A stretch of 64,000 nucleotides of DNA. It comes from Pseudomonas sp. R5-89-07 (lineage in GTDB: Bacteria; Pseudomonadota; Gammaproteobacteria; Pseudomonadales; Pseudomonadaceae). The translations under genes were made by a program, and so were the position numbers. The DNA lies in the NCBI RefSeq assembly GCF_003851685.1, contig NZ_CP027727.1, forward strand, positions 3,348,001 to 3,412,000, given 5' to 3'. The notes under the pieces were generated by a model. The model had not been told where the DNA came from and did not search any database. It saw nothing but the letters and a program-made list of their open reading frames with translations. Position 1 is the first letter of the stretch. Each line of letters opens with the position of its first letter. Positions 3,458 to 16,161 of the stretch are shown piece by piece.

Positions 3458-6400
3458 ATGGCTCGCTTGACCCCACCTTATTTTTTCGAAGAATTCCTGC
3501 GCCCGATCAAACGCAAGGCACCCACCGAGCGCGAGCGCAAGCTTGGATTTACCGTGAAAGACCTGGATTGGTTGCATACGCTTTACTACGCCACCCATGC
3601 GGCGCGGCAGGACACCAAGATCCAGAACTACCCGATGACCGTGGAACGCCTGCTGATTACCCTCACCGACAAAACCTCCATTCCATTGGCCGGCGCGTTC
3701 ATGATGAGCCCCACGCCAGACGCACAACGCGCCGTGCTCTATACCCCCTATGGCGGCCTGGAAGTGTTCGACAGCCCGTCAGTGCTGGTCAAGGAACTGC
3801 ACGATCGGTTCAAACAACCCAGCACACGGGCCGACCTGCTGCGGTTTCTGTCCATCAGCCAACGCGACGCAATACCGGCCAACGCGGCGCTGGCGCTCAC
3901 GCGCGAGGTGGTTCAGGGCGCGGTCATGCAAGACCAGGAGCAGACGATCCTGGCTAACCAGCACAGCAACGTCCAGACCATGCTCGCCCAATTACGCCAA
4001 CTGCCCAACCTGCACGAAATGCTCGACACATTGCTCGGCATTATGGCCCGCGCCTATTTTCCGGGCCTGAACCAAAGCGACACCCGAGTCGATTTTTTCA
4101 GCCGGGTGGGGGCCGGCGAAGACAGCCGCTGGGTCGCCTCTGCCCCGTTGCGCGAGGTGTTGCTGCAGTTTTATGCCAGGCAAGGCTGGCCAGTCGAACA
4201 GACGCACCGTTTCTCCAACCCACGCCATGACACCACCGACTTTAACCAGACGCAACGAGACGAAGACCAAGTGCGTTGGGACAACGTCGTACAGCAAACC
4301 AGCGGCATCCTGTCGAAACTGCTCAACAGCCTGGTGCAAACCTACTGGAACGAGGACTTTGACAATGGCCAGTCTCGCCTTGAGTTCTTCGCCCGGGTCA
4401 TCCGTGACAAATTCCGCGCTGACCTGCTGTTCAAACACCAGAATTTCATCCTGTCCAGTGACGAAAGTCGCACACTGCGGGCCCTTTTGCTCCCGAGCAC
4501 AGCCGCACGCACTGCGTTGGACAGCCCATTGCGCATCGAGAAAATACGGGTACGCGCGCAGTATCAACATCAAGTTGAACTGGCCAGCACCCTGATGATC
4601 AGTGATGACCACGCCTATCTGTATACCCAGGCCCGCGGCCTGCAGGTGCTCAAGGATCTGGATGACCTCCACGCCACCCTGCTGACGATGCTCAAGACGG
4701 CCGGCCACGAAGACGAACTGCTCAATTTTTTGTCCCTGGATGAACAGAACGTATTCATTGGCATGGATCAGTTGCAGGTTGTCGGCCTACCCGTGGCCGA
4801 CGATATATTCCAGGAAATGGTCGAGGACATTGCCGCCAAGCAGCTGGACAACCTGGAGTACTCCCTGGGGCTTTTTCGACGCAGCGGCGGCACCATCGAC
4901 CTGGGCGCGCTACTCGACAGCGCCCTGGATATCCGGTTCATGCTCGACAGCCGCTTACTCGCGCTGCAGACCGACGGGCGCTGGAGCGTGCACCCCATCA
5001 CCGGCCCGAAGGGTGGCCCGACCACCGTCATGGCGCAACGCACCAAGGGCCATTTGCAACGGCTGGAGGCCGTCCAGGCGGCACTCGCCCTCGCTCAGAG
5101 CAAACACCCGACCCTGCACAGCCTGGCGACGAAGGCGCTGAATGCGCAGTTAACCAAAAGCCAGCTGGATCTGCAGGCCGAGGATGTCCACATCAATACC
5201 TACGCCACGCCTGCGCAAGAGCTTGAAACCCGCTTACCCGAAGACTCCTCGACGATGGTCGAACACTTTATCGCGCGCCTGGCCAGGCAGGCCGAAGCCC
5301 TGACGCCATCATCACTGGCCTGGTTTTACGGCAAACGCATCGCGGGCGTCGCTTCCAAGCTCAACAGCCTGACCGTTACCCTCTTCAATCGAGTGATCGA
5401 GCAGACCCTCAAAACCTTTGGGCAACAAGATCTGCGCACGCTGCCGGGCGAGTTTCTGGACAATGAACTGCCCCGCCTTAGCCTCGGCATGCTGCAGGGG
5501 CTCAGTGGGGAAATGCAATTGCGCCAGCTGGAGAAAAGCCTCGCCCCACGAGAGCTGGCGCTGCTCGACAGCGCGCTCAAGGCCGACAGCATGACGCGAC
5601 TGACTCGTCACGGCCTCAACGGCTTCATACCGGACGCCTTCGGCTTGTCGCTCTATGTCGGCAGCCAAGCCGAGCCCGAGCCGCTGGCCAATTGCTTCGT
5701 ATTGAGCGAACGCGGCGGGCTCGACCCGCTGCATTCCGGTATTGCTCTGCTTTGGTCCCCCCACCATGGCCATGAGGCCTTCACCTCGGTCGACGACCTG
5801 CGCGATGCACTGACGCAACGTCTCGCCGATCCAACGCAGCGGCTGCCGTTACTGGACAACTTGCCCATCTCCAAACGTAAGCCCCATCAAACCTTCAGGC
5901 TTGGCCCTCTGCAACGTATTGACGACCACCTGCTGAACAACCGCCAAGGCAGTTACAGCCGACGCACACGGGCCGAGATCGACCATGTGCTGCTGATGAA
6001 CCTGAGCGCTGGGGCGCTACAGAACTGGCTGGACGCCTTGATGCGCCGAGCGCCGCCGTCAAACCTGGCTAGAAGCCTCGCCATCGCCAAAGCCATGCTG
6101 CTCCAGCAAGGGCTGCCGGTGTGGCTAGGCATGGCGCCCCCCCACGAGCAGATTGTGCATGCCGAGCTGCTCGAACAATACCGCCTCAGCGCACCGCAGG
6201 AGCGTGACTATCTTCACGGCATCACCCCGATGCGCGAGCAGGCGGCGACAACCCTTTCCAGCCTGCTCAAGGCGCGCTTTCCCGAGCAGGTGCTGGACCC
6301 GGACAATGTGCTGATCGCGCCCCGGATCAACCTCAAAGGGCATGTCCAGAGCCTGACGGACTTTGCCTTGCGCCACTGGCCCGTGCTGCGCGCCGACGAT

Positions 6401-8620
6401 ATCCGGCCCAGTTCGCGTTCCGCCACGCCGCTGCCGGCTGGGTTGGATGGCGACGCCGTGATACAGCTGGTGCGCCAACTCGACCTCAAGGGCCTGTATC
6501 GGACACACCTGGCCAGCCATCTGGAAGGCCAGGGCGATGACGCGCTCAAACGCCGTGATCTGTTTTGTCGGCAGCTGCCTTGGCAAATGCTGCAGTACGC
6601 CCATGAACAAAGGCTCGATGAACGGCTGTCGGGTACGGCCTGGAGTTTCGTTCAGCAAATCTTCGACATGCCCGACGCCGTGGCCCGCGCCATGATCCAC
6701 GGCGTAACGGCGGTCATTCGTCCCCTTGAACTGATCGCGACGCCAGGCGCGATCCCAGCCAAGGTCTTGGGCTGCTACCTGATCGGTCCCAAGGCAGGCG
6801 CTACCGGCCCCACGCTGCTTTATGCACCCTACAGCCACACGCACCTGCTCAAGGAATACACCAGTGAATCGACCTTGCTCAGTGAGTTCACTACCCCAGG
6901 CGCTTTGCAGGAATGGGTGATCAGCCGCCTGCAAGGCGGCCAACAAGCGACCTACCGCAATCTGCTGCGCCAGCACGCGCGTCGCGAGTTATCCGAGATC
7001 AGTCTTGGCGACACGCCCATTTCCGGCAACGTGCTGACACGCCTGTTCGCGGACAACCTCAGCCTGTTGTCGCAAATGCTGGCGAGCCAATTCACCCTGG
7101 GCGCAAAGGTGCAGTGGGACGCGGTGAAGAGCCTGCTGAGCGAGGACATTACCCAAGGCATTCAGTTCATGGCCGGCAAGCTGACCTACCCCCTGGTGAT
7201 CTGGCGCAGCTTCAAATTGTTCATGACCTCGGCCGAAGACCTGCAGCAACACCGCTGGAAACACGGGTTAAAGACGTTTATCGCCGGCGTGGCCGAAATG
7301 GCTGCCCTGCGCAGGGAATTGGACGGGCTCGTGCCCGACACCGCGACGCCCCAGCCAGCCACCACCGTGGAGCAATGGCTTGACGCCCCTGCGCCAGCGG
7401 CAATGACCTTGGCGACCCACGATGTGACAGCACCCCAGCGCACCCGGCTGAGCCTGTACGAAAACACAGGGGTCAACCTGAAGGACCTGAAAAAGAGCCT
7501 CTTGACCCACGTTTACAAGGATGAGGCCAATCAACGCCATTTCGTCCCGGTGGATGGCAAGGTCTATTCGGTGAAGCCATCCGCTGAACACTGGCGCATG
7601 AGTGACGGTGACCAGCACGGCCCCTACGTGCAGCGCAATGCCCGCGGCGAATGGGTGCTGGACCTGAACCTGCATCATCCGCTCTATGGCAAGACCCTCT
7701 CCAAATATACCCACAGGGTGCTGACCCGCTCGGCCGAGCGCGAGGCCATCAACGTCGAGGCGGTGGGCATGACAGCCATTGCCGCGCTGTCCAGCTGGAA
7801 GGCGCAGTGCATCAACGAAGCGCTCAACGTGGCGACGTATTACACCGTGACGTGCAAACGCAACCTGGTGCATTTTGCCGCCCTGCGCGAGCCAACCAGT
7901 CGGCTCGGGCGCTTTTTCACGGAAATGTTCGGCGTGCTCAGCCTGTCGCCCCAGCAGGTGCAGCGAATCGAAACCCGCGTCGACGAGGTGCTCGATGAGC
8001 TGCTCAACCCCACGCTGATCAACCCCGACTCAATGCGGTTCGTCACCGGTACCCACCGCCATGGTGATCGAGATACGTTTGCCTTCGTGCTGCCTGAGGA
8101 TGCGAGCAAAAAAATCTACCTGCTGGACCGGTTCTTCGATCCGAACATGGACGTCTATCAAAATCGCCTCACCACCCCGTTCGACATCACCGCCCATGCG
8201 CGCGCAGCGGTGCTGATCCACGAGATCACGCACTTGAAATCCCTGACCGAAGACCTGGCTTACCTCGACAGCATGCGACCGTTCCCGGACCTGATCAATG
8301 TGCAGATCAAAGGCGCCACGCTGATGAAAACCGACCTGACCGACCTGCGTGAAACAGCCCTCTCGGTGCTCACGCCAGCCACCCGGTTGTTCAAGAGCCT
8401 GGACGCGCTCACCCAGCAGTGGAGCGACTACAGCAGCGGCCAGGGTACCTCGCTGCTCAAGGACAAGGTGTTGAGTACCACCGGCGCTCGAAACCTGGCG
8501 GATGCCCGTGCCGTCTTCATGAGCAATGCGGATCGGCGCATCGACACGATCCTGGCCAACGCCGACTCGGTCACCTACCTGATCAGCCATCTGGGCCGGG
8601 AGCTGGACGCAGGGGCCTGA
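3458..8620 (+). CDS. Large toxin-like protein (DUF6543 / dermonecrotic-toxin-type) with C-terminal metalloprotease motif
   Basis: A single 1720-aa reading frame with no signal peptide and no clear membrane segments. The sequence style (repeated helical segments, phrases such as LYAPYSHTHLLKEY, YHQ-type repeats and FMMSPTPDAQRAVLYTPYGG) resembles the very large Pseudomonas proteins annotated as dermonecrotic toxin or DUF6543. Near the C-terminus HEITH (H1588, E1589, H1592) is followed by TEDLAYL, which resembles the HExxH plus Asp zinc site of aspzincin-type metallopeptidases. No secretion gene is adjacent. The start ATG at 3458 has only a weak ribosome binding site. Toxin activity is inferred, not shown. 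Confidence 0.7.
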   Translation: MARLTPPYFFEEFLRPIKRKAPTERERKLGFTVKDLDWLHTLYYATHAARQDTKIQNYPMTVERLLITLTDKTSIPLAGAFMMSPTPDAQRAVLYTPYGGLEVFDSPSVLVKELHDRFKQPSTRADLLRFLSISQRDAIPANAALALTREVVQGAVMQDQEQTILANQHSNVQTMLAQLRQLPNLHEMLDTLLGIMARAYFPGLNQSDTRVDFFSRVGAGEDSRWVASAPLREVLLQFYARQGWPVEQTHRFSNPRHDTTDFNQTQRDEDQVRWDNVVQQTSGILSKLLNSLVQTYWNEDFDNGQSRLEFFARVIRDKFRADLLFKHQNFILSSDESRTLRALLLPSTAARTALDSPLRIEKIRVRAQYQHQVELASTLMISDDHAYLYTQARGLQVLKDLDDLHATLLTMLKTAGHEDELLNFLSLDEQNVFIGMDQLQVVGLPVADDIFQEMVEDIAAKQLDNLEYSLGLFRRSGGTIDLGALLDSALDIRFMLDSRLLALQTDGRWSVHPITGPKGGPTTVMAQRTKGHLQRLEAVQAALALAQSKHPTLHSLATKALNAQLTKSQLDLQAEDVHINTYATPAQELETRLPEDSSTMVEHFIARLARQAEALTPSSLAWFYGKRIAGVASKLNSLTVTLFNRVIEQTLKTFGQQDLRTLPGEFLDNELPRLSLGMLQGLSGEMQLRQLEKSLAPRELALLDSALKADSMTRLTRHGLNGFIPDAFGLSLYVGSQAEPEPLANCFVLSERGGLDPLHSGIALLWSPHHGHEAFTSVDDLRDALTQRLADPTQRLPLLDNLPISKRKPHQTFRLGPLQRIDDHLLNNRQGSYSRRTRAEIDHVLLMNLSAGALQNWLDALMRRAPPSNLARSLAIAKAMLLQQGLPVWLGMAPPHEQIVHAELLEQYRLSAPQERDYLHGITPMREQAATTLSSLLKARFPEQVLDPDNVLIAPRINLKGHVQSLTDFALRHWPVLRADDIRPSSRSATPLPAGLDGDAVIQLVRQLDLKGLYRTHLASHLEGQGDDALKRRDLFCRQLPWQMLQYAHEQRLDERLSGTAWSFVQQIFDMPDAVARAMIHGVTAVIRPLELIATPGAIPAKVLGCYLIGPKAGATGPTLLYAPYSHTHLLKEYTSESTLLSEFTTPGALQEWVISRLQGGQQATYRNLLRQHARRELSEISLGDTPISGNVLTRLFADNLSLLSQMLASQFTLGAKVQWDAVKSLLSEDITQGIQFMAGKLTYPLVIWRSFKLFMTSAEDLQQHRWKHGLKTFIAGVAEMAALRRELDGLVPDTATPQPATTVEQWLDAPAPAAMTLATHDVTAPQRTRLSLYENTGVNLKDLKKSLLTHVYKDEANQRHFVPVDGKVYSVKPSAEHWRMSDGDQHGPYVQRNARGEWVLDLNLHHPLYGKTLSKYTHRVLTRSAEREAINVEAVGMTAIAALSSWKAQCINEALNVATYYTVTCKRNLVHFAALREPTSRLGRFFTEMFGVLSLSPQQVQRIETRVDEVLDELLNPTLINPDSMRFVTGTHRHGDRDTFAFVLPEDASKKIYLLDRFFDPNMDVYQNRLTTPFDITAHARAAVLIHEITHLKSLTEDLAYLDSMRPFPDLINVQIKGATLMKTDLTDLRETALSVLTPATRLFKSLDALTQQWSDYSSGQGTSLLKDKVLSTTGARNLADARAVFMSNADRRIDTILANADSVTYLISHLGRELDAGA

Positions 8621-8676: not shown

Positions 8677-8748
8677 GCGCATTTGCCACGATGGCGGTTC
8701 TCGCCGTCCTGCCTGGGAGGTTAGAATGGCGCAAATCAGGATGTGTTA

Positions 8749-9744
8749 ATGACCGACCAGCCCATTTCCGAAGCCGAGTATGACGCCATCACCGATGCGG
8801 CCGCGCATTGGTGCATGCGCATGCATGCGAGCGACTGCACGATGGCGGAGCGCCAGGCCTTTACCCACTGGCACGATGCTCATCCGCTGCACGCCTTTGA
8901 GTATGCAGCAATGCTGGAAATCTGGGACGTGGCCGATCATCTGCCGCGCAGCACGCCGGCGCCGGTCGTTTTGGCGTCCAGGCCACGCCCGCGCTGGCGA
9001 ACCTACGCGGTCGCAGCCACCATTTGCCTCGCCGCGTTACCGCTGGCCGCCTTCACTGGCTGGGAGGCCGGCTGGTTGCCCAGTTCCTATAAGCATTTCC
9101 AGGCAGTCAACGGCTTGCGCAGCGTCACCCTCGGTGATGGCAGCCAGGTGGAATTGAACCTGGGCACCGAACTGGTCTACAGCGCTTACAAAGACAGACG
9201 CCAAGTCAAATTGAAAAAAGGTGAAGCGTTTTTCAAGGTCACTCATGACAGCGATCATCCGTTTATCGTGCAGGCTGGCGACGGGCAGGTGCGGGTGACG
9301 GGCACCCAGTTCAATGTCTGGACGTATGAAGACCAGGTTCGGGTGATGTTGCTCGAAGGTTCGGTGCAGATCGCCAGCGACTCGGTGCATGGCAGCGTGC
9401 CGCTTACCCCAGGCATGCAGGCCAGTTACCAGCGCGGCGACGCCACCCCACGAGTGGCCTCGATCCAGCCCAATGACGCAGCGCTGGCCTGGCGCACGGG
9501 TAAACTGGTGCTCGACAACCTGGCCCTGGCCGACGCCTTGCCGCTGATCAACCGCTACCTGGACAAACCCGCGATGCTGGCGGACGCGGGCACCGGGACC
9601 ATTCGCATTGGCGGGATTTATAACCTCAGTGAAGTCAACAACCTCATCCCTTCCTTGCCCAAGGTGCTGCCGGTCTACCTGACCCAGAACCAGGACGGCA
9701 ACCCTGTCCTCAACTCCATCCCGCGTAAAGCACCCAAGGGCTGA
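8749..9744 (+). CDS. FecR-family sigma-factor regulator (orphan)
   Basis: A 331-aa FecR-type inner-membrane regulator. It has an N-terminal cytoplasmic DUF4880 domain (about residues 10-60, with MAERQAFTHWHDAHPLHAFEY), one membrane segment (about 87-104), a periplasmic FecR domain (about 115-235) and a DUF4974-like C-terminus. FecR proteins relay occupancy of a TonB receptor to an ECF sigma factor of the FecI type. No fecI gene precedes it, although a Fur-type box does. The FhuE-like receptor 13 kb away lacks the signalling domain needed to pair with it. The start ATG at 8749 follows AGGA; a GTG at 8743 is possible. Confidence 0.88.
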   Translation: MTDQPISEAEYDAITDAAAHWCMRMHASDCTMAERQAFTHWHDAHPLHAFEYAAMLEIWDVADHLPRSTPAPVVLASRPRPRWRTYAVAATICLAALPLAAFTGWEAGWLPSSYKHFQAVNGLRSVTLGDGSQVELNLGTELVYSAYKDRRQVKLKKGEAFFKVTHDSDHPFIVQAGDGQVRVTGTQFNVWTYEDQVRVMLLEGSVQIASDSVHGSVPLTPGMQASYQRGDATPRVASIQPNDAALAWRTGKLVLDNLALADALPLINRYLDKPAMLADAGTGTIRIGGIYNLSEVNNLIPSLPKVLPVYLTQNQDGNPVLNSIPRKAPKG

Positions 9745-9765
9745 ACGCGCGCCTGCAGCGTCAAC

Positions 9766-9782
9766 TGTCCATTTCTGAAACA
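9766..9782 (+). promoter_or_regulatory. Candidate activator site 1 of the fap operon
   Basis: TGTCCATTTCTGAAACA, an imperfect copy (one base shorter in the left arm) of the palindrome TGTnTCA-N4-TGAnACA found twice more in this gap. Its centre is about 229 bp before the predicted start of transcription. Confidence 0.5.
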
Positions 9783-9837
9783 CCCAAGTGTCTTGAATCG
9801 CCCGGCGGGTGCGGATTCATGGTTTTGTCATGGGCAC

Positions 9838-9855
9838 TGTTTCATCAGTGATACA
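9838..9855 (+). promoter_or_regulatory. Candidate activator site 2 of the fap operon
   Basis: TGTTTCATCAGTGATACA: arms TGTTTCA and TGATACA are separated by 4 nt. Its centre is about 157 bp before the predicted transcription start. It fits an enhancer-type site for a sigma54 activator. Confidence 0.55.
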
Positions 9856-9895
9856 ACTGGCGCGAGCGGCCGGGCATATCGCGCAGGATCGCAAC

Positions 9896-9913
9896 TGTCT
9901 CATGCCTGAAACA
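9896..9913 (+). promoter_or_regulatory. Candidate activator site 3 of the fap operon
   Basis: TGTCTCATGCCTGAAACA: arms TGTCTCA and TGAAACA with a 4-nt spacer, the best palindrome of the three. Its centre is about 99 bp before the predicted transcription start. Confidence 0.55.
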
Positions 9914-9976
9914 CCACAACCGGCTCACCCTCCAGCGCAATTGGCAACACCATGAATTAACAAGAAAAAACAAAAG

Positions 9977-9992
9977 CGGCACGCCTTCTGCT
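9977..9992 (+). promoter_or_regulatory. Sigma54 (RpoN) -24/-12 promoter of the fap operon
   Basis: CGGCACGCCTTCTGCT matches the RpoN consensus TGGCACG-N4-TTGC[A/T] at all but two specified positions, with the essential GG and GC exactly 10 bp apart (9978-9979 and 9990-9991). Transcription would begin near 10003, giving a leader of about 42 nt to the fapA start. This is the only strong -24/-12 match I see in the gap. Confidence 0.78.
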
Positions 9993-10044
9993 CTGTCCCT
10001 GACAACGCTGTTTAGGGTCAGCGTGAATAATAAGGACTGCCGCC

Positions 10045-10494
10045 GTGAACACACTCACTCATGCCTCGATAAACGCACTGCTGATCAGTTGCGTGCTCAG
10101 TGCCGGCATCAGCCTGCCGAGCCAGGCGGGTGACGGTGTGATCGTGACAGGGCGTGTCGTGCAAGGTCATATGTACGGGCGCACCTCCCTCCCTGACCCT
10201 TACCCCAACACCGCCAATGCCAATCCCAGCAAAGAGGTCATCAGCGCCATCTCCGGTGAACTCAGCGATGTGGACATCGGCGGTATCCGCAGCGGTTCGA
10301 GCCTTGCGCGTTCCGTCCAGCCCAGCGGCAATCCGTCGGGCTTGAGCGCCACGCAAAACGGCATGTCGACCCTCGGCACCGGCGCAGCCGCCGGCCACGG
10401 AGCAGGCAGCGGGATGGGTGGGCAGATCAGTGATTCGATCCAGCGCGGCATGACCCCCCTGAACAACCTCGGCAGCATGATGGGGGGCAAGTGA
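10045..10494 (+). CDS. fapA: Functional amyloid protein FapA
   Basis: A 149-aa secreted protein, first gene of the fap operon. The signal peptide ends near residue 25 (SQA); the mature part is rich in Gly, Ser and Asn and has no Cys. In known fap systems FapA affects how FapB and FapC are distributed in the fibril. The start is GTG at 10045, 8 nt after TAAGGA; no better ATG exists. The stop overlaps the fapB start (TGATG). The operon order, the size and the FapB-F neighbours make the call firm, since FapA itself is poorly conserved. Confidence 0.85.
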   Translation: MNTLTHASINALLISCVLSAGISLPSQAGDGVIVTGRVVQGHMYGRTSLPDPYPNTANANPSKEVISAISGELSDVDIGGIRSGSSLARSVQPSGNPSGLSATQNGMSTLGTGAAAGHGAGSGMGGQISDSIQRGMTPLNNLGSMMGGK

Positions 10495-11042
10495 TGAAGC
10501 ACTTGGTGTGGATATTAGCGCTGCTGGGCAGCGCGTCGACAATGGCTGACGACTCCGCCGTGGTCGACAACAGCGGCACACAGTACCAGGGCGTGCTGTC
10601 GATCAACCAGGCCGCCGGTACCCAGCAACAAATGTCCAACAGCCGCGCCATCGCTCTCGGCGGCCAGGCGACCAACCTCAACATTCAGAAACTCGACGGC
10701 AACGTCGACCCGTCCTTGAACGCCAAGGCGGCGATCCTGGGCACCTCTTTTACCAACGGCAACGGCGTACTGGGCATCAACCAGTCGGCCGGGGCCAATA
10801 ATCAATCGATCAACGCCGTGCGGATCAGCCTCAATCCTGGTCCGCAAAGCATCGATGACAGCGTCCTGTTGCAACAGAACACGACGCAGTTGACCGACTC
10901 AGGGCTCACCCCCACCACTGGCAGCCGCCAGGTCGTGACCAGCGACCAGGCCTTCACCGGCAGCCGAGGAGTGATTCAGGTGAACCAGAGTGCCGGGGTG
11001 GGGAACCGAGTGGCTAACACCCTGGGCATCACTATCAAGTAA
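10494..11042 (+). CDS. fapB: Amyloid nucleator / minor fibril subunit FapB
   Basis: A 182-aa secreted protein with a signal peptide (about residues 1-18) and three imperfect repeats built on the pattern GV-x-x-INQSAG-x-x-N (near residues 32, 84 and 157), each ending in an SRAIALG or LGITI-type strand. In described systems FapB nucleates FapC polymerisation and is a minor fibril component. ATG 10494 overlaps the fapA stop; the GTG one codon earlier is an alternative. There is no Cys in the mature protein, unlike FapC. Confidence 0.92.
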   Translation: MKHLVWILALLGSASTMADDSAVVDNSGTQYQGVLSINQAAGTQQQMSNSRAIALGGQATNLNIQKLDGNVDPSLNAKAAILGTSFTNGNGVLGINQSAGANNQSINAVRISLNPGPQSIDDSVLLQQNTTQLTDSGLTPTTGSRQVVTSDQAFTGSRGVIQVNQSAGVGNRVANTLGITIK

Positions 11043-11110: not shown

Positions 11111-11848
11111 ATGAAACCTCAAATGGCTCTGAAACCAATGGTTTTCGCGCTCGCCGCACTCATGGCTGCCGCCGCTCAAGCAGGCGGAGGCTGGCATCCA
11201 GCGCCGCAACCTACCGGTACGGTTGCTGCTGTGGTCACGGATGTACAAAAAAGCGAACACAACAAATTCGACGACACCAATACTGAAAACAATGCCTCTG
11301 CTGACGGTTCGGTAACCGGCAACAGCGGTAACGTAGGGGTCAACGTGCAGTCGGGCTCCGGCAACCAGGCGGATAACGCCGGTGCCATCTCCAGTGCCAA
11401 GGGCGACTTTGCCACGGTGTTCGCGGTGATCGATGTGGATCAGGGCAGCACTCACAACAACTTCGTCAACAAAGGCACGCAAAACAATGCCTCCCTGGAC
11501 AACTCGGTCAACGGCAACTCCGGTAACGTGGGTTACAACGGCCAGGCCGGTCAAGGCAACCAGGGTAAAAATAACCTGGCAATCACCACCGCTGACGGCA
11601 AAAACATCGCAGCGGCCTCCAATACCGAGCAGAACTCGCTCAATAACAGCTACCTCAATACCGCCACAAGCAGCCATGGTTATGGCAAACCTCAATACGT
11701 GTCCAACAACTCAAGCCTCGACAATTCGGTTAACCGCAACTCCGGTAACGTAGGTGTGAACCTGCAATCCGGTGCGGGCAACCAAGGCAGCAACAGCCTG
11801 TCGATCGGTCAAGGTTGCAGCGTCTGCGCCAGTGGCGTGCGCTTCTGA
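11111..11848 (+). CDS. fapC: Major functional amyloid subunit FapC
   Basis: A 245-aa main fibril subunit. The signal peptide ends at AAQA (residue 24). Three repeats of about 33 residues, each with NSGNVG-x-N-x-Q-x-G-x-GNQ, lie near 61-93, 126-159 and 200-233, separated by linkers of about 32 and 40 residues. The C-terminus carries the conserved CxxC (C236, C239). An AAGGAG site precedes ATG 11111 after a 68-bp gap from fapB. A perfect hairpin terminator immediately follows, so this gene probably gives the most abundant transcript end. Short linkers are usual in the fluorescens group. Confidence 0.97.
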   Translation: MKPQMALKPMVFALAALMAAAAQAGGGWHPAPQPTGTVAAVVTDVQKSEHNKFDDTNTENNASADGSVTGNSGNVGVNVQSGSGNQADNAGAISSAKGDFATVFAVIDVDQGSTHNNFVNKGTQNNASLDNSVNGNSGNVGYNGQAGQGNQGKNNLAITTADGKNIAAASNTEQNSLNNSYLNTATSSHGYGKPQYVSNNSSLDNSVNRNSGNVGVNLQSGAGNQGSNSLSIGQGCSVCASGVRF

Positions 11849-11881: not shown

Positions 11882-11909
11882 ATTCCAGTGTCCAGCAGGT
11901 CATTCGATC

Positions 11910-12590
11910 ATGCGCATCGCGACCCTCACCCTTCTTATGTTGCTCACCGGCACCACTTGGGCAGGCACCATGGCAATCTCTGCCATGCCCGGCGGTGCAG
12001 TGATCTTCAAGAAGGTCGAGAGCATTCGTGAACGCCGGTTCGCCAACCTGGTGGAACAGAAAACCGATTTCAGTTGTGGTGCCGCGGCACTCGCCACCAT
12101 CCTGCGCCAGGCCTATTGGCTGGACGTCGACGAAGAACACATCATCAAAGGCATGCTGGTCACCGCCGACCAGGACCTGGTGCGTACCCAGGGTTTTTCC
12201 ATGCTGGACATGAAGCGCTACCTCGAAAGCATCGGCATGCGCGCCCGGGGCTACAAGATCGCCCCTGACACCCTGACGACCGTGAAAATCCCCGTCGTGG
12301 TGCTGCTGGAAATCCGCGGCTACAAGCACTTCGTGGTGATGCAGCGGGCCGACAAGGACTGGGTGTATATCGGTGACCCGGTGCTGGGCCATAAGCGCTA
12401 TTCGCGGGATGATTTCGTCAAGGGCTGGAATGGCATCGTGTTCGCCGTATTGGGTGAAGGCTACGACAAGACCAACGTGTTGCTCGACCCACCCGCACCG
12501 CTGACCGCCAAGAACCAGATGAACGAGTTCAGGCCCGTAGGCGACGCCGAGCTGATGGATTTCGGTTTTATCCAGAGCGACTTCTTCTAG
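11910..12590 (+). CDS. fapD: C39-family cysteine peptidase-like protein FapD
   Basis: A 226-aa protein with an N-terminal signal peptide (about residues 1-18) and a C39-peptidase fold. The motif QKTDFSCGAAALATILRQAY contains the catalytic Cys; KHFVVMQR supplies the His and IGDPVLG the Asp. FapD is the putative periplasmic protease of the Fap pathway, thought to act on other Fap proteins before or during export through FapF. ATG 11910 was chosen because it gives the signal peptide; the longer frame from 11772 lies inside fapC. It is the first gene after the internal terminator. Confidence 0.93.
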   Translation: MRIATLTLLMLLTGTTWAGTMAISAMPGGAVIFKKVESIRERRFANLVEQKTDFSCGAAALATILRQAYWLDVDEEHIIKGMLVTADQDLVRTQGFSMLDMKRYLESIGMRARGYKIAPDTLTTVKIPVVVLLEIRGYKHFVVMQRADKDWVYIGDPVLGHKRYSRDDFVKGWNGIVFAVLGEGYDKTNVLLDPPAPLTAKNQMNEFRPVGDAELMDFGFIQSDFF

Positions 12591-12627: not shown

Positions 12628-13374
12628 ATGAACACTTCCCGTTGGCTGACGGTTTTGTGTCTGGCAGCCTCGATGCCCGCTTATGCTTCATCGGGTTTCA
12701 AACCGATCGAACTCAAGGATTCGGAAATGGCCGAGCTGCGCGGCCGCTATGTGATGCCGGGGCGAATCATCAGCTTCGGCATTGTCATGAGCAGCACCTG
12801 GACCAATGCCGTGGGTGACAGCATCACCGGCAAGGCCAGCCTGCAGCTCGACAAGGCCACCATCACGCCACAGTTCTACGTGCAAACCACTGGCTCGGCG
12901 GGGGCCGGAAGCAACCAGAACACCGGGGCCGGCAACGTGATCGGCGGCGCTGGCCTTGGCACTGGCCAGGGCGTGGTGCAAAGCGTGCGCACCGCCGGCG
13001 ACGGCAACACTGCCCACAACACCGTAGGCATCAACGTCACGCAGGACGGCTTAGCGCCTGCCAACCTCGTGCAATCCGGGCAAGTACTGGTGGCCGGTGG
13101 CACGGTCACCGGCGACAGCCCGGCAGGCCATGTCAGTGTGTCGGCCAACAATGGCGGCCTGCAGATGGCGATCCAGGCCAACCACAACCAGGGCAACAGC
13201 CTGCAGCAGATCGGCACCGGGAATGTGCTGCAAGGCACGGTTTTGACGGGCAATAGCAACTTCGTCAACAACCTGACCCAGCTCAATGTCGTGATGAACA
13301 ATAACGGTTTGAACAACGGCGCGTTGAACTGCAACCTGGATCAACTCAAAGGCCTACGCACCCTCGGTTATTGA
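12628..13374 (+). CDS. fapE: Functional amyloid protein FapE
   Basis: A 248-aa secreted protein with a signal peptide of about 20 residues (ending AYA). The N-terminal part carries a LKDSEMAELRGRYVMPG motif; the rest is rich in Gly, Asn and Gln with repeat-like GNVLQG and GNTAHNTVGIN segments resembling FapB and FapC repeats. FapE is a minor component found in purified fibrils. It has one mature Cys near residue 235 (ALNCNLD) rather than a CxxC pair. An AGGAGC site precedes ATG 12628. Confidence 0.9.
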   Translation: MNTSRWLTVLCLAASMPAYASSGFKPIELKDSEMAELRGRYVMPGRIISFGIVMSSTWTNAVGDSITGKASLQLDKATITPQFYVQTTGSAGAGSNQNTGAGNVIGGAGLGTGQGVVQSVRTAGDGNTAHNTVGINVTQDGLAPANLVQSGQVLVAGGTVTGDSPAGHVSVSANNGGLQMAIQANHNQGNSLQQIGTGNVLQGTVLTGNSNFVNNLTQLNVVMNNNGLNNGALNCNLDQLKGLRTLGY

Positions 13375-13423: not shown

Positions 13424-14725
13424 ATGCATCGATCGTTATCGCTCCGCGCGGTGGTCTGTCTCAGTACGCTATTGCCCGCATCCGTGTTGTATGCCGCACC
13501 GGATGCCGATATCGACACCCTCAAGCAGGAACTCCTGGAACTCAAGCAACGCTACGAGGTGCAGCAAAAAGCCCTTGCCGTATTGGAACAACGTGTTCGC
13601 CAGGTGGAAGACCAACCGGCGGCGCCAGCGCCCAGGCGCCTGGCCAAATCCCCCGCCGACTTCAAGAAAGGCGGTACCGTGGTCGCCGGCACGGGCGCGG
13701 CGGCGGCATCGGGTGGTGCGGGCGGCGGCGGCAGTTCCTACGGCCAGTCGCTCAAGGATGATTCCGCGCCGGCGCAAAGCGTGAGCAACCTCTACAACGA
13801 AGCCAGCGGCTTTTTCGGCAATGGCAAGTTCAGCTTCGAAACCGGCGTCACCTATGCCCGTTATGACGCCCGCCAGTTGACCCTCAATGGCTTCCTGGCA
13901 CTGGACTCGATCTTCCTCGGCAACATCAACCTGGACCGGATCAAGTCCGACAGCTGGACCCTTGACCTGACCGGGCGCTACAACGTCGACAATCGCTGGC
14001 AGTTTGACCTGAACGTGCCGGTGGTCTATCGCGACTCGACCTACCAGTCCGCCGGCGCCGGCAACGACGCCACGGCGACCTCGGAAGGCTCCGTCACCCG
14101 CGACCCCACCATCGGTGACGTCAACTTCGGCGTGGCCTACAAATTTCTCGATGAAACCCCCACCCTGCCGGATGCGGTGGTGTCGGTACGGGTAAAGGCG
14201 CCAACGGGTAAAGAGCCGTTTGGCATCAAGCTGGTCAAGCAGCCCAACAACGACAACCTCTACCTGCCGGAAAGCCTGCCGACGGGCAACGGCGTCTGGT
14301 CGATCACGCCGGGCATTTCGCTGGTCAAGACCTTCGACCCTGCGGTGTTGTTCGGCTCGCTGTCGTACACCCACAACTTCGAAGACTCGTTCGATGACAT
14401 CAGCAGCGAAGTCAACCAGAAGGTGGGAGGCAAGGTGCGCCTGGGCGACAGCTTCCAGGTCGGCCTGGGCGTTGCGTTCGCGCTCAACGAGAAGATGAGT
14501 ATGTCGTTCTCGGTGTCGGACCTGGTGCAGCGTAAAAGCAAGCTCAAGCCGGACGGCGGCGACTGGCAGTCGGTGGTCTCCAGCGATGCCAACGCCGGCT
14601 ACTTCAACGTGGGCATGACGATTGCCGCATCGGATAACCTGACCATCGTGCCGAACCTGGCGATCGGGATGACCGACGATGCGCCGGACTTTACCTTCAG
14701 CCTGAAATTTCCGTATTACTTCTAA
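13424..14725 (+). CDS. fapF: Outer-membrane amyloid secretion channel FapF
   Basis: A 433-aa protein. The signal peptide ends near residue 24 (YAA). A coiled coil of heptads (about residues 28-62, with [16 protein letters not shown]) is followed by a linker (about 63-110) rich in Ala, Gly and Ser and then a beta-barrel that ends in the aromatic signal KFPYYF. FapF is the trimeric pore that exports Fap subunits. A 49-bp gap separates it from fapE. It is the last gene of the operon; a REPIN-type element follows and may end transcription. Confidence 0.95.
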
Positions 14726-14835: not shown

Positions 14836-16161
14836 CTAGCGGATCTGGTGTTTGTGCAGCAACCGGTAGAATGTCGGCCGGGAAATGCCCAGTGCACGCG
14901 CCGCGACGCTCAGGTTATCACTGTGCCGGTCGAGCACATCGCACAACGCCTGGCGTTCGGCGCGGTGTTTGTAATCTTCCAATGTAGCCATCGGTGGCGA
15001 AACCGCCTGCTCGCCCTGCAGCCCCAGGTCGACCGCTTCGATCTGACGCCCTTCGGCCAACACCAAACCACGGCGCACGCGGTTGGCCAATTCACGCACA
15101 TTGCCCGGCCACGGGTGTTGCCCCATTGCCACCAAGGCCCCTTCGCTGAAGCTGCGCGGGCGGCGGCCGGTTTCCTGGCTATAGAAGCGTGAAAAATGGT
15201 TGGCCAGCATCGCCACGTCACCATGTCGCTCGCGCAACGGCGCCGTGACAACTTGCAGGACGTTCAGACGGTAATACAGGTCTTCACGAAAGGTGCCCTT
15301 CTCGACGGCGGTCTCAAGGTCAACGTGGGTAGCCGCCAGCACCCGCACATCCACCGGGATGGGCTGGCTGCCGCCGACGCGCTCGATCTGTTTTTCCTGA
15401 AGAAACCGCAACAAATTGGCTTGGAGTTCCATCGGTAGATCGCCGATTTCATCGAGGAACAGTGTGCCACCGTGGGCGGCCTCGATACGTCCGACCTTGC
15501 GCTGATGCGCCCCGGTGAAGGCGCCCTTTTCATGGCCGAAGAGTTCCGACTGGATCAGGTGCTCTGGAATCGCCCCGCAGTTGATCGCCACGAACGGCTT
15601 GGCGTGCCGCTGGGACTGGCGGTGCAACGTCTTGGCGACGAGTTCCTTGCCGGTGCCACTGTCCCCACGAATCAGCACCGGGGACTCTGTCGGCGCCAAC
15701 TTCGACAACAACTTACGCAGTTCACGGATGGGGCGGCTGTCGCCCAGTAGTTCATCCCCGGGCCCATCTACTGGGGTGTGGCCTTTACCGCGCAGGCGCG
15801 CCATGCCAAAGGCGCGTCCCAGGGTGACCTGCACCCGCGACACGTCGAACGGCAAGGTATGAAAGTCAAAGAACCATTCGCAGACAAAATCGCCAACGTT
15901 CTGCAGGCGCAATACATCCTGGCTGAGTACCGCGATCCACTCGGTGCCGCTGCGGCCGATCAGCTCCTTGACCGCTTCGGGACGTTCCAGATGGCAGGGT
16001 TGCAACCGCAGCAGGCCGACGTCGCAGGAACGGTCGCCCACCGCTTCCAGCGCACAACTGTCCACTTCCCATCCGACCGTGCGTAAGCCGGGTAGCAACC
16101 CATGGCAATCCGCACACGGGTCTACCACCAGCAAGCGGCGTTGGACGGAGGGCACGATCAT
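14836..16161 (-). CDS. Sigma54-dependent activator, VpsR/FleQ-like, probable fap regulator
   Basis: A 441-aa enhancer-binding protein. The N-terminal domain (about residues 5-120) looks receiver-like but lacks the acidic pocket and phospho-acceptor pattern, as in VpsR. The AAA+ domain (about 135-370) shows Walker A GDSGTGKE, GAFTGA (contact with sigma54) and Walker B GTLFLDEIGD. A Fis-type helix-turn-helix (AARALGISRPTFYRLLHKH) ends the protein. It is convergent with fapF, and the fap promoter is of the sigma54 type, so it is the best candidate activator. c-di-GMP control is possible by analogy with VpsR and FleQ but is not shown. Confidence 0.9.
   Translation of the reverse strand: MIVPSVQRRLLVVDPCADCHGLLPGLRTVGWEVDSCALEAVGDRSCDVGLLRLQPCHLERPEAVKELIGRSGTEWIAVLSQDVLRLQNVGDFVCEWFFDFHTLPFDVSRVQVTLGRAFGMARLRGKGHTPVDGPGDELLGDSRPIRELRKLLSKLAPTESPVLIRGDSGTGKELVAKTLHRQSQRHAKPFVAINCGAIPEHLIQSELFGHEKGAFTGAHQRKVGRIEAAHGGTLFLDEIGDLPMELQANLLRFLQEKQIERVGGSQPIPVDVRVLAATHVDLETAVEKGTFREDLYYRLNVLQVVTAPLRERHGDVAMLANHFSRFYSQETGRRPRSFSEGALVAMGQHPWPGNVRELANRVRRGLVLAEGRQIEAVDLGLQGEQAVSPPMATLEDYKHRAERQALCDVLDRHSDNLSVAARALGISRPTFYRLLHKHQIR

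Follow-up and report, generated by a model that had tools for sequence, protein, structure and literature searches.

In our opinion the window, by which we mean the whole stretch of 64,000 nucleotides from Pseudomonas sp. R5-89-07 that was analysed, very probably carries an orthologue of the published BrfA-RpoN-fap circuit, with BrfA acting on a palindromic enhancer of three sites in front of fapA. According to the mechanism that we propose, BrfA from the convergent gene past fapF would bind operators of the TGTnTCA-N4-TGAnACA type as a dimer. The operators would make up a three-site enhancer, the proximal site being locked 64 bp above the GG of the -24 element and the middle and distal sites, about 73 bp apart from each other, lying further up. 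At high c-di-GMP the bound BrfA would assemble and remodel the RpoN-polymerase at the -24/-12 promoter, upon which the fap amyloid operon would be transcribed. Our own observations concern the anatomy of the sites, their conservation and the co-occurrence of fap with BrfA.

The BrfA-RpoN-fap circuit as such is already known, according to the published accounts at our disposal. In P. fluorescens PF07 the expression of the fap genes falls in rpoN and in brfA deletions, the transcription start of fapA-E, located by 5'-RACE, is preceded by a -24/-12 promoter, and the gene that follows fapA-F in reverse orientation is brfA, whose ORF measures 1,326 bp (PMC9207406). PF07 BrfA is further reported to sense c-di-GMP and to activate fapA (PMC13101488), and RpoN has been reported as a positive regulator of fap (PMC8202526); a review of 2018 listed the transcriptional control of fap as still to be investigated (PMC6173800). 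Direct regulation of fap by BrfA has been reported in print for this orthologous system. The direct evidence for control of fap by BrfA and RpoN in PF07 is reportedly given by Guo 2024 (Microbiol Res 287:127864). The sequence of the operator was not found in the literature on BrfA and fap that we searched; Guo 2024 lay outside this search, so prior publication is possible. What the present analysis adds to the known circuit is a definition of the operator, its fixed geometry and evidence for a role of BrfA beyond fap.

The window resembles PF07 in having a convergent activator past fapF, a -24/-12 promoter before fapA and an activator ORF of the same length as PF07 D7M10_RS14495 (1,326 bp), and both activators belong to the Fis family of sigma54 activators. 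The strains are different, and the likeness is one of gene position, ORF length, promoter type and family rather than of aligned proteins. A preliminary description of this DNA had suggested that amyloid formation has its own locally encoded sigma54 activator, possibly linked to c-di-GMP, and the match to the published orthologue supports this suggestion (PMC9207406, PMC13101488).

The operon itself lies on the plus strand and consists of fapA (10045-10494), fapB (10491-11042), fapC for the major amyloid subunit (11111-11848), fapD for a C39 peptidase (11904-12590), fapE (12628-13374) and fapF for the outer-membrane transporter (13424-14725). FapA models of NCBIfam match fapA above their cut-off, and NCBIfam also identifies fapB to fapF, with a Pfam match in addition for fapD. 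Directly upstream of fap there is a FecR-like gene (8743-9744). It is preceded by an ORF of 1,720 aa (3458-8620), which is not an ECF sigma factor; this ORF has a match to PF20178 (ToxA_N) and a match to a metallo-endopeptidase family that stays below cut-off.

The activator gene, which we regard as the brfA orthologue (441 aa), occupies 14836-16161 of the minus strand and converges with the adjoining fapF, which ends at 14725. Its product combines an N-terminal domain of the VpsR type (PF20161, 33.8 bits with a cut-off of 23.7), a sigma54 AAA+ domain (PF00158, 245.4 bits) and a Fis-type helix-turn-helix (PF02954, 22.2 bits with a cut-off of 22). GAFTGA is present in the translation (ELFGHEKGAFTGAH), which bears out the earlier claim of a GAFTGA-containing sigma54 activator running against fapF from the minus strand. 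The PF20161 domain is shared with VpsR of Vibrio cholerae, a c-di-GMP-linked regulator of matrix that is not known to need RpoN, whereas BrfA has GAFTGA and a sigma54 promoter. By sequence, the best-scoring solved structure is that of FleQ of Pseudomonas aeruginosa (8p53), over the AAA+ part; the N-terminal domain of FleQ has no Pfam match in the window activator at E <= 0.001. FleQ responds to c-di-GMP, and its operator differs in sequence from the palindrome discussed here. We take R185 and N186 to be the c-di-GMP contacts of FleQ, and these two residues align with Lys and Thr in the window activator (VARNLH versus VAKTLH). Provided that the contacts are as we assume, the c-di-GMP site of BrfA is not that of FleQ, a point that we count against the proposed circuit.

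The gap upstream of fapA (9745-10044) was inspected letter by letter. The sigma54 promoter CGGCACGCCTTCTGCT at 9977-9992 on the plus strand is evident from direct reading and is conserved in an alignment of 32 loci. As described earlier, its GG (9978-9979) and GC (9990-9991) are separated by 10 bp, and the surroundings are of the TGGCAC..TTGC kind. We set the nominal +1 at 10003, which is 12 nt past the C of the GC, and counted the centres of operators from there. The candidate proximal operator is the exact palindrome TGTCTCATGCCTGAAACA at 9896-9913, centred at -98.5 and 64 bp from the GG of the -24 element, and the candidate middle operator is the exact palindrome TGTTTCATCAGTGATACA at 9838-9855, centred at -156.5. 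The candidate distal operator TGTCCATTTCTGAAACA (9766-9782, centre -229) is a 17-bp variant of the palindrome with TGTCCA as its left half, and its centre is 72.5 bp away from that of the middle site. The preliminary description placed three copies of the palindrome about 99, 157 and 229 bp upstream of the start. These distances agree with the measured ones, and two of the copies are indeed exact, but the third falls outside the consensus, though it is conserved among close relatives, where the 32-locus alignment reads TGTCCA.TTTTgaaACAC.

A scan of the window for TGTnTCA-N4-TGAnACA with up to two mismatches returned 9838-9855 and 9896-9913 as the sole matches; even at this tolerance the distal element (9766-9782) is not matched. 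Two such loose matches per 64 kb are nothing unusual, because two or more were reached in 32 of 100 shuffles of the 64 kb (mean 1.21 palindromes). What is unusual is that both palindromes are exact, lie 58 bp apart and are unique in the genome: among 5,997,145 bp the exact pattern occurs in these two copies upstream of fapA and nowhere else, and the reversed control gave 0. For 81 fap loci of the genus the frequency of exact palindromes is 0.96 per upstream region of 600 bp versus 0 in shuffles (first-order Markov, 20 per region, 1,620 in total). Two further conserved elements came from the 32-locus alignment. One is a block, GCGGATTCATGGTTTTGTCAT, at 9811-9831 between the distal and middle operators, and we know of no site that resembles it. 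The other is the strongly conserved stretch CCTGACAACGCTGTTTAGGGTCAGCG around the transcript start (9998-10023, plus strand), which by eye holds a 5-bp inverted repeat CTGAC...GTCAG; its conservation and the repeat hint at control on the RNA level or at the start site.

The geometry of the sites was compared among 101 loci representing six genus groups: the window, 80 of the 141 fapF-positive loci of the genus, which were picked mostly down an identity ranking and are a non-random sample, and 20 of 33 loci of the family. Nineteen of these family loci come from five other genus codes and one (G286) from the window's own; at three of them (L165, L168 and L176) a FapA match is absent and the anchor was fapB. 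A weight matrix made of 229 sites, with both strands used, has the consensus TGT-n-t-C-a-N4-t-G-a-n-ACA. In 98 of the 101 loci a site is centred between -97.5 and -99.5, and in 78 it is centred at -98.5 exactly. The three misses are L048, where the promoter was mis-picked and the spacing is 64 bp by eye, and L160 and L173, where the proximal site is degenerate by eye. Eighty named loci (P. orientalis, P. lactis, P. simiae, P. lurida, P. protegens, P. chlororaphis and others), which overlap in part with the first set, were compared as well; of the 79 that could be scored, 78 agree in the position of the proximal site. The exact geometry, taken as a relaxed palindrome, 64 bp and GGCAC-N7-GC, was looked for in the 199 genomes drawn from the genus and gave 110 matches in 103 of them; its reversed control was found in 2 genomes. 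Judged by position or likeness, ninety-eight matches are at fapA promoters of fapF-positive genomes (the one of G127, on a separate contig, was assigned to the fapA promoter by likeness), one is a fap remnant in G196 and 11 are elsewhere. The exact arrangement of operator and promoter is found almost exclusively in front of fap (99 of 110 matches).

This comparison also bears on the FecR-like gene, since it could be argued that in the clade of the window fap is governed chiefly by this gene together with an ECF sigma factor. Indeed, such a gene adjoins fap on its upstream side in the window and at 31 of the 80 fetched genus loci. However, the DNA fetched for the remaining 49 genus loci and for the 20 family loci yielded no FecR-like gene, and there the operators and the promoter are mostly kept. 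We consider this explanation very improbable.

As to the more distant sites, in the window and the 80 genus loci (L001-L080) the middle site is found at -145.5, at -155.5 to -157.5, at -166.5 to -168.5 or at -175.5 to -180.5, with none between, and these clusters recur in the named set, where the last of them extends to -182.5. Counted from -98.5, classes of distance near 47, 58, 70 and 82 bp comprise 3, 13, 15 and 47 of the 78 genus loci with a scored middle site, the window included and the classes having been drawn up with the data in view. A quick FapF tree of these 78 loci calls for at least eight changes of class. The steps from class to class are close to one turn of DNA, which no more than suggests helical phasing of the middle site; the mean step is about 11.7 bp, longer than a turn of B-DNA, and the other genera and L175 scatter. 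When the 40-80 bp above the middle site were searched, 30 loci had a scoring distal site; in 25 of them it is 72-75 bp off, the exceptions being L163, L165, L168, L175 and L176. The distal element of the window's clade goes unscored by the weight matrix. Regarding covariation of the helix-turn-helix with the half-sites across genera, there is little variation in either.

The deviating form of the distal element allows for another interpretation, namely that only the proximal and middle sites are operators of BrfA, and that some other protein uses the distal TGTCCA...TGAAACA and the GCGGATTCAT..TTTGTCAT block. In the window's clade this element has neither the length nor the left half of the palindrome, and it contains a conserved run of T peculiar to it. 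Other clades, on the contrary, have a near-consensus palindrome 72-75 bp above the middle site (for example L046, L068, L080 and L171). To us this two-site alternative seems possible but rather doubtful, and we infer that all three sites act jointly as the BrfA enhancer.

The distribution of the two partners was assessed in a draw of 199 genomes from the genus, where BrfA was considered present at a best E <= 1e-150 and fapF at E <= 1e-70; seven genomes with weak fapF-like matches (about 1e-11 to 1e-20) were left out of the fapF-positive group. BrfA was found in 164 genomes and fapF in 141. All 141 fapF-positive genomes are BrfA-positive, 23 have BrfA without fapF and 35 have neither (Fisher p 7.6e-24, kinship ignored). 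In a draw of 119 genomes from the family (fapF E <= 1e-50, BrfA E <= 1e-110) BrfA occurs in 48, among them all 33 fapF-positive ones, five of which are also in the genus draw. The counted copies of BrfA include some partial or broken ones. In G125 (L044) the match covers residues 1-372 and the helix-turn-helix is lost, and in G052 (L021) the gene as assembled has internal stops; both genomes keep fap and the operators, and we count them against the circuit. In G076 the BrfA match covers 1-385 and fapF is in pieces. One of the 35 genomes with neither, G196, has a remnant of fap (L289, 5102-6595) in which the promoter, fapA and fapB are kept; the fetched 11 kb gave no good matches to FapC-F, and BrfA is matched over residues 1-129 only.

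The preliminary description also raised the question of whether the palindrome appears only where the convergent activator is present. This holds in the main, in so far as a site is fixed before fapA at the family loci fetched and no fapF was seen without a BrfA match, but it fails for strict adjacency: among the 80 fetched genus loci there are 8 where brfA is unlinked to fap and located elsewhere in the genome (at a ninth, L001, the contig ends before brfA). The proximal palindrome is kept at these eight loci, as would be expected of a factor that acts in trans.

BrfA is not restricted to genomes with fap, and the 23 of 199 genomes that have it without fapF count against BrfA as a regulator of fap only. 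The recognition helix SRPTFYRLLHKHQIR is unchanged in 71 of 72 fap-linked BrfA proteins (the window included), in 5 of 5 unlinked ones and in 14 of 14 from fapF-less genomes, the latter being the neighbourhoods fetched from 14 of the 23 genomes. In all 14 neighbourhoods brfA is full-length with no inner stops and is flanked by CobN, ChlI-like, VWA and AAA_28 genes; an NMN transporter was matched in 11. Of the 80 fap-positive genus loci, 48 likewise have an AAA_28 gene within the DNA fetched, and in L031, L068 and L074 the printed gene orders place it on the fapA side, which makes it look as if fap had once stood between the AAA_28 gene and brfA and was then lost. Compared with the BrfA of the window, the fapF-less proteins have a mean identity of 88% in the helix-turn-helix region and of 68% in the N-terminal domain. 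G137 (L153) has one change in the helix (HHIR); its fap is gone except for a C-terminal scrap of fapF, and its brfA is full-length. Because the helix is kept in 14 of 14 fapF-less loci, BrfA probably has further targets beyond fap.

Two further ideas about these fapF-less genomes were followed up. A c-di-GMP enzyme beside brfA was rejected, as the neighbours at L141 and L139 are other proteins according to Pfam (CobN, a ChlI-like AAA protein, a VWA protein, an AAA_28 protein and an NMN transporter). A promoter of the fap type is so far not supported either, since the exact 64-bp pattern is found in 0 of the 23 BrfA-positive fapF-less genomes. With one mismatch allowed, 21 of the 23 genomes and G000 gave 117 matches versus 58 for the reversed pattern, and about 32 of the 117 are, by eye, two strings that recur across genomes.

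The palindrome is not exclusive to sigma54 promoters, since exact copies occur elsewhere in relatives. We inspected 58 such loci away from fap (L081-L138), a part of those that had come up, as candidates for more promoters of the BrfA-sigma54 kind and rejected them: in none of the 58 did we see several operators together with a convincing intergenic sigma54 promoter. Some have a lone string resembling -24/-12 downstream of the palindrome (L081, L086, L089 and L137, for example, and at other distances). In L100-L103 such a string lies at 101.5 bp, near the fap spacing, with both elements located inside a long ORF or bordering on it. Single exact palindromes near genes for a C39-ABC exporter, a ShlB-type transporter and RTX/DUF4214 proteins were seen in fapF-less, BrfA-positive genomes (L082, L085, L092 and L098), where no sigma54 promoter at the fap spacing was found.

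A different arrangement recurs before a chemoreceptor gene, where the palindrome is located 53 bp upstream of an nGCCGATA element, presumably part of a sigma28-type promoter. This pattern is present in 20 of 199 genomes, compared with 1 for the reversed control. A chemoreceptor relative, 80-100% identical, follows it in 15 of the 20 and not in the other five; the L106 member of this family has 4HB_MCP and MCPsignal matches. The 15 genomes are all fapF-positive and BrfA-positive, and the genome of the window is not among them. The loci concerned are L291, L292, L294-L300, L302, L304, L305 and L307-L309.

These findings bring up an objection to our proposal, namely that the palindromes bind another regulator, while BrfA acts via some other sequence or together with that regulator. 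Exact palindromes do precede genes without a sigma54 promoter, such as the chemoreceptor with its sigma28-like promoter in 15 of 199 genomes, and AmrZ is reported to regulate the fapA-F cluster in P. ogarae F113 (PMC9279365). Nevertheless, the spacing of 64 bp to a sigma54 promoter is fixed at nearly all fap loci examined, the palindrome is retained where brfA is unlinked, and all 15 chemoreceptor genomes have BrfA. Moreover, exact palindromes occur in 12 of 23 genomes with BrfA and no fapF versus 4 of 35 without BrfA (p 0.001, kinship ignored), and one of these four is the fap remnant of G196. In our view the objection is unlikely to hold, and we infer that BrfA is the protein that binds the palindromes in this strain. 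In favour of the BrfA circuit we count the uniqueness of the palindromes in the genome, their fixed spacing, the co-occurrence, the unchanged helix and the published genetics.

A wider and much more tentative interpretation, which we would not yet bet on, is that BrfA uses a rigid array of three operators, in which the proximal one keeps to -98.5 and the middle and distal ones have shifted as a pair, several times over, by about one turn of DNA, and that it has a second regulon as well. A fixed proximal site combined with turn-sized moves of the other two would mean that BrfA touches the promoter in a set helical geometry. The second regulon is proposed because the helix is unchanged in the absence of fapF and because in some species the same operator precedes the sigma28-like promoter of the chemoreceptor gene by a constant distance. 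If this is true, one sensor of c-di-GMP would tune amyloid and chemotaxis jointly. Fap is the biofilm amyloid of Pseudomonas, and an operator defined by fixed geometry makes the control of fap by BrfA predictable in new genomes and names the bases and spacings to be tested. Further, the persistence of BrfA without fapF makes for a concrete search for other genes under its control.
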